From an uncultured Eudoraea sp. (GTDB lineage Bacteria > Bacteroidota > Bacteroidia > Flavobacteriales > Flavobacteriaceae), in assembly GCA_947258405.1 (NCBI GenBank), contig CAMYIE010000014.1, positions 1 to 64,000 of the forward strand: 64,000 nucleotides of DNA. Direction: 5' to 3'. Numbering within the stretch: position 1 is the stretch's first letter; every line of letters starts with the position of its first letter. Below, in pieces: positions 10,102-50,944 of the stretch. The position numbers were made by a program, and so were the translations under genes. The notes under the pieces were generated by a model. It saw only the letters and a program-made list of their open reading frames with translations, ran no database searches and was not told the origin of the DNA.

Positions 10102-12150
10102 CTATTCCGGATATTCTACCCTGAGGTGGTAAATATTAGTGAGTTTTTGTTTCAGAACCTTTTTAACCGATTGTATTTCTTTAAAAGTAATATTCGCGTT
10201 TAAAAACTGCTGCCCATTCATCTGTCCGCTTACAATTTTCTCAACAAATTCATCTAAGATAGAATAGGTGGGATTGTTCAGACTTTTCGAGGCGGCTTCA
10301 ACAGCATCCGACATCATTAGAATAGCGGTTTCTTTTGAGAATGGAATAGGACCTGGATAGCGGAAATCAGATTCTTTGACCTCTTCGCCCGAATCCTGTT
10401 GCTTTTTGTAGAAATAATAGACAAAGGTAGTTCCGTGATGGGTTCTGATAAAATCGATCACCCTGTCGGGTAACCTGTTCTGACGGGCAATCTCGATCCC
10501 TTCGATAACATGGTCGATAATGATCCTGGCACTTTCTACAGGCTCCAGGTCGTCGTGGGGGTTGATATTGGTTACCTGGTTCTCCGTAAAATAAGCCGGC
10601 TTATTCATCTTGCCGATATCGTGGTATAAAGCCCCTACCCTCACCAGCATCGCATTGGCGCCAATCTCATTGGCGGCGGCCTCAGCGAGGTTCGCTACCT
10701 GAAGACTATGGTGAAAAGTGCCCGGTGCCTTGTTCGCCAGTTCCTTGAGGAGTCGGGAATTGGTATCCGACAGCTCGAGCAGTGAAACATCGGAGATAAG
10801 TCCGAAGATCTTTTCATACATATAGATCAGTGGTTGTGCAAAAAGGGTTATCATACCATTGAGCAGAAAAAATCCAAAAGTATAGAGGTTGATCTGATCT
10901 AAGGTGCCTTCCTGAATGACATAGAAGGCGAAATAGCCCAACATATAGATCAGCGTAATCTGTCCGACCGAAATAAAGAGATTGGCTCTTTTGTAGAGTT
11001 CAGAGACCGTAAGAATGGTTACAATACCAGCGATGATCTGCAAGAATATATACTCGAAACTATTGGGCACTACAAATCCAAGGATCAAGACCGTTAGTAC
11101 ATGGACAAACAAGCCTAGTCGGGCATCGAAAAAGGTCTTTAGAATAAGCGGGAGGATACATAACGGCACAACAAATACATAGGCTTCGTTATACTTCACC
11201 ACCAGGGTGGTAATAAAGACCATCAAAAGAATATTGAAAAAGATAAAGGTCACTTTTACGTTGTTTCGAAAAACTTCCTGCCGGTATTTTTTTAAAAACA
11301 ACATGAGCATCATCAACACCAGGGCCACCAGAATAGTATAACCGGCCAGTATAAAGAGGAAGTTGTTCTCGGCCCATAATTCCGATTCATACTCGGCCTT
11401 TAAGGAATTCAATATTTTCAGGTTCTCGGCCTCAACCACCTCGCCCTTGGCAATAATCAATTTGCCTTCATCCACACTACCCCTGGTCATGGAGATCTCA
11501 GAGAACACATCGTCTAAAGCTTTTTTAGAGAGTTCATCATCGTATCTTACATTAGGTCTGAGAATATCAAAAAACAACTGGCGGAATTGATTTTGATAAC
11601 GCGTCAGGGACTGCGCGTCTAATAGTACAGACAGTTTATCGCCAGCGTCTACAACTCCCAGGAGTTCATCGCTTTCAAGCAGCATGGCCTCATTGTTCTT
11701 TACTAAATAGAGTTTTGCTTTCTGAGACCTGTTTTGAGTATTCTCCAGCAATCCATATCGATAAAATTCTTCCAGGATTTCCCTTCCAGACTCCTCTAAC
11801 CGTTTCAGCTGTGAGACAGAATATCGCTCCTGTGGAAACACTGCGTTAAATTGCTGATCAAAAAGTGTATGAACTTGGTCTACAACTAACGTATCATAGA
11901 TATAATAGTCGATATGCCGACTTTCGATCTCCTGCTTTTCCAGCTGAATTTCATCCTCAGATTTCTTTATCGTAAAATCGAAGGGAGCATAAAGGTTTTC
12001 GTATTGCCAGGGTTTTCCTTTTTGAAATTCGTATTTGAATTTACCTCCCCTTGGGAAAAAAAATACGATGCACCCAACGGTGAGAAAGTAGAGGAAATAT
12101 TTATAAATAAGTGATTGCTTCTTGTAAACGGTATCAAGGTATTTCCCCAT
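10102..12150 (-). CDS. 7TM-HD family membrane phosphohydrolase (PgpH-like)
   Basis: A 682-residue protein. An N-terminal membrane helix (FLYFLTVGCIVFFFP) is followed by a large extracytoplasmic region (~40-260), seven membrane helices (~265-460) and a cytoplasmic HD domain. The HD motifs are HHSLQVANLAEAA, LYHDIGK and THHGTT. Proteins of this architecture (7TMR-HDED/7TM-HD) hydrolyse cyclic di-AMP in Firmicutes (PgpH); the same activity here is inferred. The ATG at 12150 (MGKYLDTVYKK) was chosen over an in-frame TTG at 12171 because a -7-like box (12169-12176) overlaps that TTG. Confidence 0.88.
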   Translation of the reverse strand: MGKYLDTVYKKQSLIYKYFLYFLTVGCIVFFFPRGGKFKYEFQKGKPWQYENLYAPFDFTIKKSEDEIQLEKQEIESRHIDYYIYDTLVVDQVHTLFDQQFNAVFPQERYSVSQLKRLEESGREILEEFYRYGLLENTQNRSQKAKLYLVKNNEAMLLESDELLGVVDAGDKLSVLLDAQSLTRYQNQFRQLFFDILRPNVRYDDELSKKALDDVFSEISMTRGSVDEGKLIIAKGEVVEAENLKILNSLKAEYESELWAENNFLFILAGYTILVALVLMMLMLFLKKYRQEVFRNNVKVTFIFFNILLMVFITTLVVKYNEAYVFVVPLCILPLILKTFFDARLGLFVHVLTVLILGFVVPNSFEYIFLQIIAGIVTILTVSELYKRANLFISVGQITLIYMLGYFAFYVIQEGTLDQINLYTFGFFLLNGMITLFAQPLIYMYEKIFGLISDVSLLELSDTNSRLLKELANKAPGTFHHSLQVANLAEAAANEIGANAMLVRVGALYHDIGKMNKPAYFTENQVTNINPHDDLEPVESARIIIDHVIEGIEIARQNRLPDRVIDFIRTHHGTTFVYYFYKKQQDSGEEVKESDFRYPGPIPFSKETAILMMSDAVEAASKSLNNPTYSILDEFVEKIVSGQMNGQQFLNANITFKEIQSVKKVLKQKLTNIYHLRVEYPE

Positions 12151-23137: not shown

Positions 23138-23189
23138 CTGGCAATAATTTTTAATAAAAAACGGCTACTTGACAAAAATTGTGGAATAA

Positions 23190-23220
23190 TTTGATAAGGT
23201 ATTCAAAAGTACTACTTTTG
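23190..23220 (+). promoter_or_regulatory. Threonine operon promoter (Bacteroidota type)
   Basis: TTTG (23190-23193), a 19-bp spacer and TACTTTTG (23213-23220) form a full match to the Bacteroidota housekeeping promoter (-33 TTTG, -7 TAnnTTTG). A start near 23226 puts the leader ORF start codon (23240) about 14 nt into the message and leaves ~175 nt before thrA. Confidence 0.75.
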
Positions 23221-23239
23221 AGGCTTTATCAGAAGTACG

Positions 23240-23335
23240 ATGATTGGCATTACAGATTTTGGGAACCGCATATTTACTCTTCATGCTTTTTGGTATTCCA
23301 TCACTCCAGCATTTACCACTACCCCTGTGGGGTAA
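23240..23335 (+). CDS. thrL: Threonine operon leader peptide (31 codons)
   Basis: A short ORF (ATG 23240, TAA 23333-23335) between the thr promoter and thrA. It encodes six Thr and four Ile in 31 residues, with three consecutive Thr codons (ACC ACT ACC) and the ending FTTTPVG. The Thr run is directly followed by a small stem ACCCC-TGT-GGGGT (23321-23333) that covers the last codons and the stop. Ribosome stalling on Thr (and perhaps Ile) codons would change folding of the leader and so control thrABC. A tract of six T's (23380-23385) lies before thrA, but I cannot build a convincing terminator stem in front of it, so the mechanism is open. A longer ORF in another frame here begins upstream of the predicted transcript start and is not favoured. 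Confidence 0.72.
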   Translation: MIGITDFGNRIFTLHAFWYSITPAFTTTPVG

Positions 23336-23399
23336 GCAGCTATTTATATTTCCGTTTTTACAAAATCTTTTAGACGACCTTTTTTAACTAATATTCCAT

Positions 23400-25844
23400 A
23401 TGAAGGTTTTAAAATTTGGCGGTACTTCGGTAGCCAGCGCAGATCAGATAAAACAAGTAAAGCAAATTATTGCCGATAAGCAGGCCCAGCGGGTTTTTGT
23501 GGTGGTCTCTGCATTGGGTGGCATCACAGATCTTCTAATCAAGACTTCAGCCATGGCTGCCAAAAGGGATGAAGGATTTCACGAGGGTGCGAGGGAACTT
23601 GAAAAAAGACATCTGGAAGCTATAAAGTCACTCATCCCTGTTAAATCCCAAAGTGGGATTCTGAGTCATGTGAAAACCGAACTCAATACACTGGAAACGC
23701 TGCTTGAAGGGGCATATCTTATCGGGGAGATCACTCCCCGACTGCTCGACAGGATTTTATCTTATGGAGAATTACTCTCTTCCTACATTATCAGTGAATA
23801 CCTGCTTGTTTCAGGTCTCGATGCCAAACTTAAAGACAGTCGGGAGCTGATCATCACCGACGAAAACTATGGTAAAGCTGCTGTAAACTTTGAGATCACC
23901 AACCCGGCTTGTCAGTCGTATTTTGAAAATAGCAAAGAGAAGATTACCGTACTCCCTGGTTTTGTATCTTCTTCAGAAACAGGTAATTCCACAACTCTGG
24001 GTAGAGGAGGGTCGGACTTTACGGCTGCTGTGATCGCAGGTGCTCTGGGTGCGAAACTATTGGAAATATGGACCGATGTAAGTGGAATGTATACCGCAAA
24101 TCCTAAACTGGTAAAACAGGCTAAGGCGATCACGAATATCTCTTATGAAGAGGCTATGGAATTATCGCACTTCGGTGCAAAGGTCCTTTATCCGCCTACT
24201 ATCCAACCAGTGCTGCAAAAGGGAATTCCAATACATATCAAAAATACTTTTAGGCCCCAGGATCAGGGTACTACGATAGAGAAAAACAAAGGAGATTCAA
24301 AATACGCTGTAAGGGGCATCAGTTATATTCCGAATATCAGTTTGCTCACTCTTGAAGGGCCAGGTATGATTGGTATACCGGGTACCTCCAGGAAATTCTT
24401 TGAGGTGCTCTCGCAGGCCCAGATCAGTGTTGTTCTGATTACACAGGCATCTTCAGAACATTCCATCTGTATAGGACTGGCCCAGGACGATGCGCCAAAA
24501 GCAGAAAAGCTGGTTAATGAAGCTTTTGCCTATGAGATCAGGGAGTCTAAAATAAAACCGGTAATAACAGAAGGTGATTTGGCCATCATTGCACTGGTAG
24601 GCGATCAAATGAAAAGCTACCAGGGACTCAGTGGAAGAATGTTCAGCACCCTTGGCCGGAACAACGTTAATATCAGAGCGATAGCCCAGGGCGCTTCGGA
24701 ACGGAATATCTCGGCAGTTATCCAGAAGGAAGACGTCAGAAAAGCGCTTAATGCGCTCCACGAAACATTTTTTGAAGAGAACATAAAGCAGTTGAATCTA
24801 TACATTATGGGAGTAGGTAATGTTGGATCAAGACTTTTGAATCAAATACGGCAACAGCATAGATATCTCAAAAATCAACTCCGTTTAAATATTCGGGTAA
24901 TTGGAGTATCCAACTCAAGGACCATGTATTTCCAAGAGGGCGGAATTCCGCTAGAAGCCTGGGAGGAAAACTTGGCTCAGGGAGAAAAGGCAGATCCAAA
25001 TAAATTTTTAAGTCAGTTGCTTACCCATAATTTTCGCAATAGCATTTTCGTAGACAATACGGCTAGCTCGGTGGTAGCGGATACCTATCAGAATTATCTC
25101 AGCAAAAGCATTGCCGTGGTTACCTGTAATAAGATTGCATGTTCTTCCGACCTCGATAAATATCTTAAACTGAAAGAAGTCTCCAGGGCATACAACGCTC
25201 CTTTCCTTTTTGAAACTAACGTTGGAGCCGGCTTGCCGATTATTGACACCTTAAAACACCTCATCGCATCGGGCGACAGGGTGAACAAGATTCAGGCCGT
25301 CCTTTCAGGAAGCCTGAATTTCGTATTTAATAATTACGATGGCAGTATTCCCTTTTCCCAGATAGTCCAAAGAGCTCAGAAAGAAGGCTATACCGAACCT
25401 GATCCCAAAATCGATCTAAGCGGTGTAGATGTAATGCGCAAAATACTTATCCTGGCAAGGGAAAGTGGATATTCCATAAATATGGATGACATTGCCAATA
25501 ATTCCTTCCTGCCTCAGGAAAGCCTCGATACGAACGACAATGACGCTTTCTGCCAATCGCTGGAGAAAAATGAATCGGGATTTCGCGAGCTGTATAACAA
25601 GGCAGATGAAAACGACTGCAAACTTAAATACGTAGCCCAGTTTGAAGAGGGTCGGGCCTCGGTCGGACTACAGTCTATACCCAGGGATCACGATTTCTTT
25701 AAACTGGAAGGCAGCGACAATATCGTACTATTCTTTACCGATCGCTACCGGGAACAACCCCTGGTGGTTAAAGGTGCCGGTGCGGGTGCAGAAGTTACCG
25801 CTTCCGGTATTTTCGCAGACATAATCAGAATTGGTAACTTTTAG
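23400..25844 (+). CDS. thrA: Bifunctional aspartate kinase / homoserine dehydrogenase I
   Basis: An 814-residue fusion catalysing the first and third steps of the aspartate pathway to threonine and methionine. The aspartokinase domain (~1-290) has KFGGTSVAS at the N-terminus and TTLGRGGSDFTAA. Two ACT regulatory segments follow (~310-460; e.g. ISVVLITQASSEHSICIGL, GRNNVNIRAIAQGASERNISAVI). The homoserine dehydrogenase domain (~465-810) has the NAD(P)-binding IMGVGNVGSRLLNQI and the active region FETNVGAGLPIIDTLKHL. It is the first gene of thrABC, 64 bp after the leader stop. The ACT domains imply threonine feedback inhibition in addition to leader control. Confidence 0.97.
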   Translation: MKVLKFGGTSVASADQIKQVKQIIADKQAQRVFVVVSALGGITDLLIKTSAMAAKRDEGFHEGARELEKRHLEAIKSLIPVKSQSGILSHVKTELNTLETLLEGAYLIGEITPRLLDRILSYGELLSSYIISEYLLVSGLDAKLKDSRELIITDENYGKAAVNFEITNPACQSYFENSKEKITVLPGFVSSSETGNSTTLGRGGSDFTAAVIAGALGAKLLEIWTDVSGMYTANPKLVKQAKAITNISYEEAMELSHFGAKVLYPPTIQPVLQKGIPIHIKNTFRPQDQGTTIEKNKGDSKYAVRGISYIPNISLLTLEGPGMIGIPGTSRKFFEVLSQAQISVVLITQASSEHSICIGLAQDDAPKAEKLVNEAFAYEIRESKIKPVITEGDLAIIALVGDQMKSYQGLSGRMFSTLGRNNVNIRAIAQGASERNISAVIQKEDVRKALNALHETFFEENIKQLNLYIMGVGNVGSRLLNQIRQQHRYLKNQLRLNIRVIGVSNSRTMYFQEGGIPLEAWEENLAQGEKADPNKFLSQLLTHNFRNSIFVDNTASSVVADTYQNYLSKSIAVVTCNKIACSSDLDKYLKLKEVSRAYNAPFLFETNVGAGLPIIDTLKHLIASGDRVNKIQAVLSGSLNFVFNNYDGSIPFSQIVQRAQKEGYTEPDPKIDLSGVDVMRKILILARESGYSINMDDIANNSFLPQESLDTNDNDAFCQSLEKNESGFRELYNKADENDCKLKYVAQFEEGRASVGLQSIPRDHDFFKLEGSDNIVLFFTDRYREQPLVVKGAGAGAEVTASGIFADIIRIGNF

Positions 25845-25848
25845 GCCT

Positions 25849-26772
25849 ATGGAAAGTATTCGGATTTTTTCACCGGCCTCTGTTGCAAACATCTCCTGTG
25901 GTTTTGACGTATTGGGGCTTGCACTTGAAACCATAGGTGATTATATGACCGTGACGAAAGTACCTGAACCCGGCATAAGGATTACCCGTATCACCGGTCA
26001 AAAACTCCCACTCGAAACAAATAAAAATGTTGCAGGAGTAGCGGCCCTGGCCCTGCTCGATAAATTTGATTTTGAAGGCGGCTTCGAGATTGAGATCGAT
26101 AAGAGGATCAAACCGGGCAGTGGGATCGGCAGCAGTGCCGCGAGCGCTTCGGGTGCGGTATGGGCAATTAATGAATTACTGGGGCACCCTTTTACCAAGC
26201 TCCAATTGGTGGAGTTTGCCATGGAAGGAGAACGCCTCGCCAGTGGTGCGGCCCATGCAGACAATGTAGCCCCGGCTTTATTTGGCGGATTTACACTGGT
26301 AAGAAGTTACGAACCCCTTGATATCGTGGCTATTCCTGCCCCTGAGGATCTCTTTGCGACAATTGTCCATCCCCTCATTGAGATTAAAACCGCTGATTCA
26401 AGGAAGATTCTGAAAAAGTCGATCACCCTTGCCGATGGAATTAAACAATGGGGCAATTTAGGCGGGCTTGTAGCCGGACTGTACACTCAGGATTATAGTT
26501 TAATCGGCAGATCTATGATAGACCATATCATAGAACCCACCCGCGCTATACTGATCCCTGGTTTCGACGAAGTAAAAAGTGCAGCCTTAAATGCCGGAGC
26601 GCTTGGATGTGGTATTTCAGGTTCCGGGCCATCGATCTTTGCGCTGAGTAAAGGCAAGACAATTGCCGATGAAACCGCAGTGGCAATGAAAGAAATATAT
26701 AATGGACTCGACATCGATTTTGATGTCCATGTATCGAATATCAACCCTTACGGCATCAAAGAAGTTCAATAG
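25849..26772 (+). CDS. thrB: Homoserine kinase
   Basis: A 307-residue GHMP kinase that phosphorylates homoserine with ATP. Motif 1 is SPASVANISCGFDVLGLAL near the N-terminus, the ATP loop is KPGSGIGSSAASASGA (~85-100), and the C-terminal motif is GCGISGSGPSIFAL. The ATG at 25849 is used; an in-frame TTG at 25831 would overlap thrA. Only four bases separate it from the thrA stop, indicating translational coupling. Confidence 0.97.
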   Translation: MESIRIFSPASVANISCGFDVLGLALETIGDYMTVTKVPEPGIRITRITGQKLPLETNKNVAGVAALALLDKFDFEGGFEIEIDKRIKPGSGIGSSAASASGAVWAINELLGHPFTKLQLVEFAMEGERLASGAAHADNVAPALFGGFTLVRSYEPLDIVAIPAPEDLFATIVHPLIEIKTADSRKILKKSITLADGIKQWGNLGGLVAGLYTQDYSLIGRSMIDHIIEPTRAILIPGFDEVKSAALNAGALGCGISGSGPSIFALSKGKTIADETAVAMKEIYNGLDIDFDVHVSNINPYGIKEVQ

Positions 26773-26814: not shown

Positions 26815-28110
26815 ATGAAATTCTATAGCCTCAATCGAAATTCTGCCCCTGTAAGCTTTCGCGAAGCTGTGCTTAGGGGAATTGCACCGGATAGAGGCCT
26901 GTATTTCCCTGAAAATATCGAATCGCTGCCTGCGTCTTTCATTGCAAATTTGATAGCTCATTCGAATGCTGAGTTGGCTTTCCATGCCATGCAACAGTTC
27001 ACCAGGGAGGATATTCCTGATGAGGTACTTATGGAAATGGTACATGAGGTACTCCAGTTCGATTTTCCGCTGGTGAGCCTCACCAATGAGATCGCTGTTT
27101 TAGAATTGTTTCACGGCCCCACCATGGCCTTTAAGGATGTAGGGGCTCGTTTTATGGCTCAATGTATGGGTTACTTTGCTTCTTCCGGCAGCAAGGAAAC
27201 CACTGTCCTGGTTGCTACCTCCGGCGATACCGGTGGCGCTGTGGCCAGAGGATTCCTGGGTGTTGAAGGTGTTAAGGTGGTCATTCTCTATCCCAGCGGA
27301 AAGGTTAGTAATATTCAGGAAAAACAGCTCACCACGCTGGGGCAGAATATTACCGCCCTTGAAGTAAACGGGACTTTCGACGATTGTCAGCAAATGGTAA
27401 AGAATGCATTTTTGGATCCTGATCTTACGACCAAACTTCAGCTAACTTCTGCAAATTCGATCAACGTGGCGCGTTGGCTGCCTCAGCAATTCTATTATTT
27501 CATCGCCTGCAAAGCTTTGGAAGAACGTTCCCAGCCCCTGGTGTTTTCCGTGCCCAGTGGGAATTTTGGTAATCTTTGTGCAGGTATGGTGGCCCAGCGG
27601 CTCGGCTTGCCAATCGAACATTTTATCGCTGCAACGAATATCAACGATACGATTCCCAAGTTTATGAAGACCGGGGATTATTTCGCACAACCCTCCTCCC
27701 CTACTATTTCGAATGCCATGGATGTGGGGGATCCCAGTAATTTTGTCAGGATACTGGAATTGGTAGACCATGATTTCGACCGACTCAGAAAGATTTTCTC
27801 TTCTTATTCGTATACCGATAAGGAAACCAGGAATGCCATGAAAGAAATCTATAAAATTTCGGGATATGTAGCCGACCCTCATGGCGCTGTGGGCTACCTA
27901 GGGCTCAAGCGCTTTCTTCAAGATCATCCGGAGTATTATGGAGTATTCCTCGAGACTGCTCATCCCGTTAAATTTTTAGATGTGGTTGAAGATACCCTGG
28001 GCTTCAAACAGTCTCTACCAAAGCAAATTGCGGATATCACTAAAAAAGAGAAGAAAGCAATCGCCGTGGATTCCTATAAGGATGTGAAGGAGTATTTGCT
28101 GCTTTCGTAA
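26815..28110 (+). CDS. thrC: Threonine synthase
   Basis: A 431-residue PLP enzyme converting O-phosphohomoserine to threonine. The N-terminus (FYSLNRNSAPVSFREAVLRGIAPDRGLYFPE) is typical. The PLP lysine is in HGPTMAFKDVGARF (~100-113). The phosphate/PLP-binding loop is TSGDTGGAVA, and SVPSGNFGNLCAG follows at ~240. Last gene of the thr operon, 42 bp after thrB. REP hairpins begin just 10 bp after its stop and may protect or end the transcript. Confidence 0.97.
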   Translation: MKFYSLNRNSAPVSFREAVLRGIAPDRGLYFPENIESLPASFIANLIAHSNAELAFHAMQQFTREDIPDEVLMEMVHEVLQFDFPLVSLTNEIAVLELFHGPTMAFKDVGARFMAQCMGYFASSGSKETTVLVATSGDTGGAVARGFLGVEGVKVVILYPSGKVSNIQEKQLTTLGQNITALEVNGTFDDCQQMVKNAFLDPDLTTKLQLTSANSINVARWLPQQFYYFIACKALEERSQPLVFSVPSGNFGNLCAGMVAQRLGLPIEHFIAATNINDTIPKFMKTGDYFAQPSSPTISNAMDVGDPSNFVRILELVDHDFDRLRKIFSSYSYTDKETRNAMKEIYKISGYVADPHGAVGYLGLKRFLQDHPEYYGVFLETAHPVKFLDVVEDTLGFKQSLPKQIADITKKEKKAIAVDSYKDVKEYLLLS

Positions 28111-28183: not shown

Positions 28184-28741
28184 TTAACCCATAAATCCAA
28201 TTTCATCTATCTTCATTACTGAATGATCTTCCTGATAATTTCTGGCACTACTGTATTTCCAATCTTCTGGCCTTGTAACAAAGCCTGATACTACAGGATT
28301 TCTATGTATATACTCTATTTTTTGTTTGATTACTCCAGTACTCCATAACTCAATCGGCTTATTATGATGTTGCCAAAGTTGCCTGCGAGTAACATTGCTT
28401 TTGTTTTTTGCCGCCCGTTTAAATAATTCGAGCAACCATTTGCGTCTGCTTTCTAAAGAATTCTCCTCTATACCTTTTAAAAGCCTTCTTGACGAATACC
28501 CTTTAAAATCTCTTATTAGACCAGACGGGTCTCCAATGACTGATCTAAAAATCATATGGACATGGCTGGGCATAAAACAGTATGCATATACTTCCATGTC
28601 TTTTTTCTCCCGGCAATAAGTAATACTTTTTTCAAGAATACTAAAATATTTCTCTCTCGTAAATAGATCTATCCAATAAACTGTAGCAAAAGATATAAAA
28701 TAGGCTGCTGTTGGGTTGTGGAACTTGTAATTGCGGCTCAT
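28184..28741 (-). CDS. rayT: REP-associated tyrosine transposase (RAYT, Y1 family)
   Basis: A 185-residue single-strand-specific HUH nuclease of the IS200-like family. The metal-binding HUH motif is MPSHVHMIF (His60, His62) and the probable nucleophile is Tyr144 in EYIHRNPVVSG. C-terminal WKYSSARNY is typical of the RAYT group. All catalytic residues look intact. REP-like hairpins flank the gene on both sides in inverted orientation, the usual arrangement of a RAYT with its REP substrate. It sits in an intergenic slot between the thr operon and gcvT, without visible target duplications. Confidence 0.9.
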   Translation of the reverse strand: MSRNYKFHNPTAAYFISFATVYWIDLFTREKYFSILEKSITYCREKKDMEVYAYCFMPSHVHMIFRSVIGDPSGLIRDFKGYSSRRLLKGIEENSLESRRKWLLELFKRAAKNKSNVTRRQLWQHHNKPIELWSTGVIKQKIEYIHRNPVVSGFVTRPEDWKYSSARNYQEDHSVMKIDEIGFMG

Positions 28742-42754: not shown

Positions 42755-42792
42755 GATCCCTGCCATTCCCTATAAAAGGTTCGGCAGGGATC
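42755..42792 (-). terminator. Terminator of rnpB (convergent with rsmD)
   Basis: A perfect 10-bp stem (GATCCCTGCC/GGCAGGGATC) encloses an 18-nt loop. On the minus strand it is followed by a U-rich tract (TTTTTATTAATT), so it fits as the end of the RNase P RNA transcript. It also lies just after the rsmD stop codon. Confidence 0.8.
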
Positions 42793-42795
42793 TCA

Positions 42796-43121
42796 AGAAG
42801 CGGTTTATAAGCCGGATTCTGTAACCCGTATATGTAATACAGGCCCTTATCATTTATCTGGACCCATGGTTGCCCATAAGTTCTATCCGCCTACCCACCA
42901 ACTCGGGCGTGCTACCCTCAAACACTGGCTTACATGGCGTTTCACCACATAGAGTTTACCTGATTTCACTACAGCCTTACCTGTACTTGCTTTCTGTTGC
43001 ACTTGTCCTCTCCTGACGATGAACGTCAGGATGACGGGCGTTACCCGCTATGCTGCACTTTGGTGTCCGGACTTTCCTCCCAATAGTGATTAACTACTAC
43101 AGGGCGATAAGGCCACCGCAT
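42796..43121 (-). ncRNA. rnpB: RNase P RNA (bacterial type A)
   Basis: The minus strand carries the conserved 5' core block GAGGAAAGTCCGGAC near 43070 (P4 region), the internal block GGGTAACGCCCG, GGTGAAACGCC and the 3' block ACAGAATCCGGCTTATA (near 42805-42822). The 5' and 3' ends are set by these blocks and by the following terminator and could shift by several bases. This is the catalytic subunit that removes 5' leaders from tRNA precursors. There is no protein-coding frame in this stretch. Confidence 0.93.
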
Positions 43122-43198
43122 CGTACAAAGATAGTGCAATTGTTGATAAATATTGGTTAATCTGAGCTAATCGCAATACTCTTATATCGGTCTATTTT

Positions 43199-50044: not shown

Positions 50045-50944
50045 TTAATCGGCATCTATGCGGGGTTGTTGGCCTCTTAGAACGCTGTTTTCATTGAATA
50101 ACCGGCTCTGGTCGATGCCAGCCTTGTCCAACCAGTGTCCCTCCTTCATTTTACCATTTTTGCTAAATGCGGCCAGGGCATTGGCATAGCATGTCTTAAT
50201 AACATCTTCCTTCGATATCCCCCTTTTGATCATTAACGAGGCAGTCTTAGGGACGGCCAGGGGATCGCTTACTCCCCAGTCTGCAGAGCTGTCTACTATA
50301 ATATTCGTACTGCCAAATTTGCGTACCACCTCCACCATACGTTCGTTGCCCATTTTGGTTTTAGGATAAATGGTAAAAGCAGCGATAAAACCACGGTCGA
50401 GTACCTCTCGTACGGTCTCCTCATTATTGTGATCGATAATGATATTGGCAGGGTCTAATCCGTGTTCTATACAGACCTCCATGCTTTTCAATGTGCCAGC
50501 CTTCTTGTCGCGATGCGGAGTATGAACCTGGACCGTCATATCAAGGGTTTTGGCCAACTCGAGCTGTGCCCTGAAATACTTGTCTTCTGCCGGGGTCTGA
50601 TCATCATATCCAATTTCGCCGATCGCTACTACATTTTCCTTATGCAGATAGAGTGGCAGAAGTTCCATGACCTGCTCGGCCAGGGCTTCGTTATTGGCTT
50701 CTTTTGAATTCAAGCCGATTGTACAATAGTGTTGTATCCCAAACTGACTTGCCCTAAAAGGTTCCCAGCCCACCAGGCTGCTAAAGTAGTCCTGAAAGGA
50801 GCCTACCTGGGTTCTCGGCTGACCCAACCAAAATGAGGGTTCGATGACGGCCACAATACCGGATGCTGCCATAGCTTCATAATCGTCTGTGGTGCGCGAT
50901 GTCATATGGATATGAGGGTCGATATAAATTAATTTGTCTTCCAT
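50045..50944 (-). CDS. eboB: EboB, TatD-like metal-dependent hydrolase
   Basis: A 299-residue TatD-family TIM-barrel. Metal ligands appear in YIDPHIHMTSRT (HxH near residue 11), GEIGYDDQTP (Glu), VQVHTPHRDK and IIIDHNNEETV, with VDSSADWGVSDP at the end. TatD proteins are nucleases or phosphohydrolases; the branch in ebo clusters has unknown substrates. Spaced 3 bases from eboA. Confidence 0.92.
   Translation of the reverse strand: MEDKLIYIDPHIHMTSRTTDDYEAMAASGIVAVIEPSFWLGQPRTQVGSFQDYFSSLVGWEPFRASQFGIQHYCTIGLNSKEANNEALAEQVMELLPLYLHKENVVAIGEIGYDDQTPAEDKYFRAQLELAKTLDMTVQVHTPHRDKKAGTLKSMEVCIEHGLDPANIIIDHNNEETVREVLDRGFIAAFTIYPKTKMGNERMVEVVRKFGSTNIIVDSSADWGVSDPLAVPKTASLMIKRGISKEDVIKTCYANALAAFSKNGKMKEGHWLDKAGIDQSRLFNENSVLRGQQPRIDAD

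Follow-up and report, generated by a model that had tools for sequence, protein, structure and literature searches.

How can a stalled ribosome switch an operon on or off when no intrinsic terminator lies between the leader and the first gene? This question is raised by the thrABC operon in a 64,000-nucleotide stretch of DNA from an uncultured Eudoraea sp. (henceforth referred to as the window). A preliminary description had placed here a promoter of the form TTTG-N19-TACTTTTG, a 31-codon open reading frame (ORF) with six Thr and four Ile codons, a run of three Thr codons before a PVG ending encoded within a hairpin, and a gap of 64 nt to thrA. Direct reading bore out each of these features (Table 1): the Thr residues occupy codons 5, 13, 22, 26, 27 and 28, the Ile residues codons 2, 4, 11 and 21, and 64 nt separate the leader stop from the ATG of thrA at position 23400. 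The assignment of the downstream genes to a thrABC operon also holds (NF006959 for thrA, TIGR00191 for thrB and TIGR00260 for thrC), and ThrA of the window is 86% identical to that of a Robiginitalea MAG, the closest named relative. In an alignment of 78 thrA upstream regions, the promoter block (aTTTGat.aag...cAAAagTACTACtTTT) is kept in relatives; a consensus scan of the + strand of the leader, which does not cover Bacteroidota promoters, detected no sigma-70-type promoter. The two halves of the inverted repeat around the -7 box are largely conserved in the same alignment, and the repeat is possibly an operator, or incidental.

Table 1. Coordinates of the features of the thrABC leader and operon in the window.
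Feature	Position	Strand	Basis
Bacteroidota-type promoter: TTTG (23190-23193), 19-nt spacer, TACTTTTG (23213-23220)	23190-23220	+	Read directly; block conserved
Perfect inverted repeat CAAAAGTA-C-TACTTTTG, contains the -7 box	23204-23220		Read directly
Leader ORF, 31 codons, MIGITDFGNRIFTLHAFWYSITPAFTTTPVG followed by stop	23240-23335	+	Thr/Ile-rich frame conserved in 70 non-redundant relatives
Putative regulatory Thr codons ACC ACT ACC, the last in the 5' arm of the hairpin	23315-23323	+	Fixed register
Hairpin H, UACCCC-UGU-GGGGUA, overlaps ORF end and stop codon	23320-23334	+	Conserved stem
Conserved AU-rich element UAUUUAUAUUUCCG, then UCC, 3' of the hairpin	23341-23354	+	Relatives' leaders
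G-poor, C/U-rich gap from leader stop to thrA, 12 C and 5 G	23336-23399	+	Composition
thrA, bifunctional aspartate kinase/homoserine dehydrogenase I, 814 aa	23400-25844	+	NF006959, 1054 bits; Pfam AA_kinase, ACT, Homoserine_dh
thrB, homoserine kinase	25849-26772	+	NF002288, TIGR00191
thrC, threonine synthase	26815-28110	+	TIGR00260

Since 29 of 5000 dinucleotide shuffles of positions 23226-23399 (0.6%) contained an ATG-initiated ORF of 20 codons or more that included six or more Thr codons, the leader ORF is only suggestive when a single sequence is considered, and conservation has to settle the matter. At nearly all of 80 flavobacterial thrA loci we found a short ORF with a Thr/Ile run at its end, located about 55-95 nt 5' of thrA, and when 60 genera of Flavobacteriaceae were sampled, the majority of the thrA genes read were also preceded by such an ORF. 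The preliminary description had named the lack of a conserved ORF or Thr run in relatives as refuting; the outcome was the opposite, with both there at nearly every sampled thrA of the family. To quantify coding, leaders more than 75% alike were dropped, which left a non-redundant set of 70 Flavobacteriaceae leaders. Over the last 10 codons 5' of the hairpin (700 codons in total), the frame of the ORF contained 217 Thr codons, 112 Ile codons and not a single stop, whereas the other two frames of the same stretch contained 20 and 4 Thr codons and 29 and 20 stops, respectively. All four Thr codons are in use (ACT 87, ACC 58, ACA 74 and ACG 20), which argues that the peptide, rather than the DNA, is under selection. 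Judged by these comparisons, the leader ORF is not a product of chance. As expected of an attenuator, it is short and carries successive codons for an end product of the operon, and its translation is predicted from the conserved frame. The leader peptide of the window has no match in Pfam or NCBIfam, and neither do the leaders of two relatives in NCBIfam.

A short hairpin with a C-rich and a G-rich arm (hairpin H) lies at the end of the ORF in 116 of 120 Flavobacteriaceae loci scanned; at one locus (L121) the automatic pick of the scan is a terminator instead. The peptide sequences that end at the hairpin differ (TTPLG, TTPVG, TTP with the stop codon in the loop, TTLWGC, TTRLGC and ITPFGV), the stop codon falls either inside or after the hairpin, and both stem length and loop differ (for example ACCCC-UUU-GGGGU, CAACCC-GUUU-GGGUUG and ACCCC-AUAAC-GGGGU). 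Since the stem is kept while the encoded residues and the stop position vary, hairpin H appears to be under selection at the RNA level. The register of the hairpin relative to the reading frame is identical in 68 of the 70 leaders, and its 5' arm starts with an ACC Thr codon; given the footprint of a ribosome, one waiting at the last Thr codons would have to hold the hairpin open. Hairpin H overlaps the putative regulatory codons and the ORF end, in the position of the 1:2 hairpin of an attenuator. The evidence for the stem comes from arms read sequence by sequence, and we do not claim formal covariation; counting pairs for H on a plain alignment proved invalid because loops of 3-5 nt are not gapped there. 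When RNA folding was considered, as the preliminary description had proposed, the local hairpin alone stood out, and the complete leader, folded as a single sequence, was no more stable than its shuffles (z = +0.58). In one relative (L118) a long hairpin of 14 pairs lies within the ORF, from about 70 to 37 nt 5' of hairpin H and upstream of the Thr codons.

The remark that no clear intrinsic terminator could be built holds for the window and across its relatives. The consensus scan of the window's leader (+ strand) returned no intrinsic terminator. A scan of 70 hairpin-type leaders gave a terminator-like site in only 1, where 1.8 are expected by chance, and recovered four terminators that served as positive controls (at hisG of the same genome and in the thr leaders L121, L149 and L150). 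Hairpin H itself was rejected as an intrinsic terminator, as too few U residues follow it in most leaders. Nor did the hairpin-type leaders contain a convincing antiterminator, and the classical arrangement, in which an antiterminator excludes an intrinsic terminator with a U-run before the first gene, was not found. A second hairpin (T), with stems such as TTGTAATTT..AAATTACAA at a position of about +25 to +30 in some clades, is significant (p < 0.05) in only 14 of the 70 leaders; mostly lacking a U-run, and absent from the window, it was rejected as a universal terminator, and it could be a terminator remnant.

What does accompany hairpin H is an AU-rich element at a near-constant distance. 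In 75 of 87 leaders, compared to 14 in shuffled copies, the motif A(U/C)AUA or AUAU occurs 5-26 nt past the G-run; its start mostly lies 9-11 nt past the G-run, although that of the window's own copy lies at 13 nt. This hairpin-AUAU module keeps its inner spacing, whereas the gene start follows it at anything from about 58 to about 200 nt, and an effect on transcription is therefore favoured over one on the thrA start codon. Over the 70 relatives the gap between leader and gene contains 1008 C and 394 G (a ratio of 2.6), compared to 410 and 407 (1.0) upstream of the other ORFs of the window; a C-rich, G-poor gap of this kind would suit Rho and is suggestive of a rut-like site, though it is no proof of one. 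Taken by itself, however, the pattern CCCC-N3,4-GGGG-N8,12-ATAT shows no genome-wide enrichment relative to a reversed control, and thus the hairpin with its spacing does not suffice to identify a thr leader.

To determine how far the arrangement extends, we used a covariance model of a 53-nt block, which was built from Flavobacteriaceae and applied with strict filters, so that the numbers of matches given here are lower bounds. The model has one match in the genome of the window and 17 in 119 genomes of the order, of which 14 lie before thrA, two before thrB and one in an unrelated coding sequence. The two before thrB (L169 and L181) belong to a family with small genomes in which thrBC is not preceded by thrA; there, too, a Thr leader is followed by the hairpin. 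In 296 genomes of the phylum there were 23 matches, all 13 further loci precede thrA, and a distant family is included, in which the leaders end in IITTIITP or similar sequences directly before the stop codon. The pattern of hairpin and ATAT alone, which is looser than the model, added a thr leader in one further family (L201). The arrangement of leader and hairpin recurs before threonine genes across much of Bacteroidota, and among gene-leading matches it is restricted to threonine operons. An Rfam search returned nothing credible in positions 23150-23450, and a compact module of RNA and peptide that is found in several families and has no Rfam family would allow direct annotation of threonine control. 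At the gathering threshold, the sole Rfam match in the window is a bacterial RNase P RNA of class A (RF00010, 187 bits; positions 42792-43123, minus strand).

Overall, the leader is almost certainly a threonine-sensing switch, to judge by its sequence conservation, and the proposal of leader-peptide control gains support from a Thr/Ile frame and hairpin conserved in the family and from the recurrence of the block in other families. We propose that the region controls thrABC by ribosome-mediated attenuation, in which H serves as a pause-type hairpin and the output is transcriptional, a reading to which we assign a probability of roughly 0.68, because of the codon pattern, a hairpin that would be opened by a ribosome on those very codons and the restriction to threonine operons. 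Transcription of thrABC would start from the promoter in Table 1, and a ribosome would translate the Thr/Ile-rich leader. With ample charged tRNA-Thr the ribosome would reach the stop codon and depart, and H would fold behind it. With charged tRNA-Thr scarce it would stall on the last Thr codons, the final one of which lies in the 5' arm of H, and H could not fold; scarcity of Ile would likewise cause stalling, through the Ile codons of the leader. The pauses in his and trp leaders are hairpin-stabilised, with a spacing close to the distance between H and AUAU, and for this reason we read H as a pause hairpin: together with the AUAU element at its near-fixed distance, it is placed like a 1:2 pause hairpin and would most likely hold RNA polymerase where the leader ends. 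Against a pause-hairpin attenuator count the 13-nt distance in the window, outside the usual 9-11 nt, and the failure to find an intrinsic terminator or a convincing antiterminator in hairpin-type leaders, as hairpin T is significant in few of them. A stalled ribosome would then leave the operon on and a free H would turn it off, and, since no intrinsic terminator was found, we propose Rho-dependent or another non-canonical termination as the output. Stalling, pausing, the sign of control and the transcriptional output are what we infer from the arrangement of these sequences, while the conservation of Thr/Ile coding, the hairpin, its lock to the frame, its spacing and the restriction to threonine operons are observed directly.

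The main competitor, already raised in the preliminary description, is that the leader acts on the translation of thrA, where translation of the leader or stalling on it would alter folding or re-initiation and so determine whether ribosomes reach the thrA start codon. The failure to find a terminator speaks for this, and so does the minimum-energy fold of the window, in which the first half of the leader ORF is paired to the region around the thrA start, two segments that are identical in a second genome of the genus; however, this fold is no better than those of shuffles, the distance from leader to gene varies widely around a hairpin module that remains compact, and re-initiation would have to span a long 58-200 nt, so we consider control of thrA translation unlikely. 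Classical attenuation by a long-range intrinsic terminator, in which the 5' part of the leader ORF would pair with a segment before a U-tract unless covered by ribosomes, could draw on eight contiguous pairs that are present just 5' of U-rich sequence in the window (AGAUUUUG at 23254-23261 with CAAAAUCU at 23361-23368) and in many Muricauda-type leaders (AAACGGAU with GUCCGUUU). Yet among 112 leaders, pairings within a leader score nearly the same as pairings across species (means of 14.6 vs 13.6; median rank about 0.40), long-range stems adjoining any U-tract have a mean rank of 0.46 relative to shuffled leaders and are hence unsupported, and the conserved KQTD codons account for the Muricauda sequence. 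We regard such a terminator as distinctly improbable.

Two further explanations dispense with attenuation. Were the short ORF translated but without a regulatory role, or merely a constitutive booster of thrA expression, one would have to explain why Thr and Ile, the end products of the pathway, are enriched at its end in dozens of genera, and why the leader sits before thrB in operons that do not begin with thrA; the chance of this seems very small to us. A slimmer chance still is given to the idea that the hairpin binds a threonine-responsive protein (e.g. threonyl-tRNA synthetase) and that the ORF is secondary: the stem is strongly conserved and the loop of the window, UGU, happens to equal the anticodon of a tRNA-Thr, but loops vary freely among leaders (UUU, AUU, UUA, AUA, GUU and AUAAC), and a protein-binding site would need neither the conserved frame nor the Thr codons. 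Having weighed these possibilities, we retain ribosome-mediated attenuation with transcriptional output as the preferred reading. Its extension to a class of threonine attenuators throughout Bacteroidota, where a pause-type hairpin has the regulatory codon itself as its 5' arm and contains or adjoins the stop codon, and where ribosome-controlled pausing or a Rho-dependent output would replace the intrinsic terminator, is more tentative, and we rate it at somewhat below even odds.

The classical case of threonine attenuation is thrL, which controls thrABC in E. coli (Rfam Thr_leader, Pfam Leader_Thr). Like thrL, the leader of the window is a short ORF with many Thr and Ile codons that precedes thrABC and has a hairpin at its end; unlike thrL, it has no Rfam or Pfam match and no intrinsic terminator with a U-run, and the last Thr codon fixes the place of its hairpin, a very short one. 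Earlier surveys that compared attenuation among bacteria, by Vitreschak in 2004 and by Lopatovskaya in 2010 (cited in PMC4833913), reportedly list candidate attenuators in Bacteroidetes, and they may hold a thr entry. Within the phylum, loci L149 and L121, and tentatively L150, share with the window a Thr/Ile leader before thrA but differ in having a strong terminator between leader and gene and no CCCC-NNN-GGGG hairpin; at L149 the leader MYNSTIIITIIITTGRNLAEE, ended by a stop codon, is followed by the terminator AAGAAGCCTTCCT-CATCC-AGGAAGGCTTTTT. Two types of thr attenuator therefore probably coexist in Bacteroidota, with L149 and L121, and less surely L150, representing the canonical one. 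For Flavobacterium psychrophilum, which like the window belongs to Flavobacteriaceae, clues to leader peptides before amino-acid operons are mentioned in one general sentence (PMC9723704), a passage that gives neither a hairpin nor an output step, and a term search of the main text of that article returned neither thrA nor threonine. Leader-peptide attenuation as such is thus known, in outline also in flavobacteria, and what we describe as new is a variant that lacks a terminator and has its hairpin locked to the last Thr codon. Bacteroidota are plentiful in the sea and the gut, where their sensing of amino acids has been little studied.

The genome of the window also carries a leader of the canonical kind. 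Upstream of hisG (L134; contig C17, hisG at 11161), the leader MRNSNTHHHYHPCAQAR, closed by a stop codon, is followed by the terminator AACCCGTTTGAGCAATCAAGCGGGTTTTTTATTG. Like the thr leader, it precedes a biosynthetic operon of the same bacterium and has successive codons for the amino acid made by that operon, here His; unlike the thr leader, it has a textbook terminator (AACCCGTTTGA-GCAA-TCAAGCGGGTT-TTTT) and no CCCC-GGGG/AUAU module. To judge by the hisG leader and its strong terminator, this genome seems to make use of attenuation, which, like the canonical thr attenuators of some relatives, speaks for the attenuator reading of the thr leader, and a canonical His attenuator beside a terminator-less Thr leader permits a comparison within a single organism. 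Directly upstream of ilvD in the same genome no leader peptide was seen by eye. A second open frame of 1144 residues (L166; contig C4, around position 50859) is about 36% identical to ThrA, with extra sequence on its N-terminal side and no Thr leader seen upstream. Just 3' of thrC in the window, an ORF on the minus strand (28184-28741) resembles by eye a REP-associated/IS200-type transposase.
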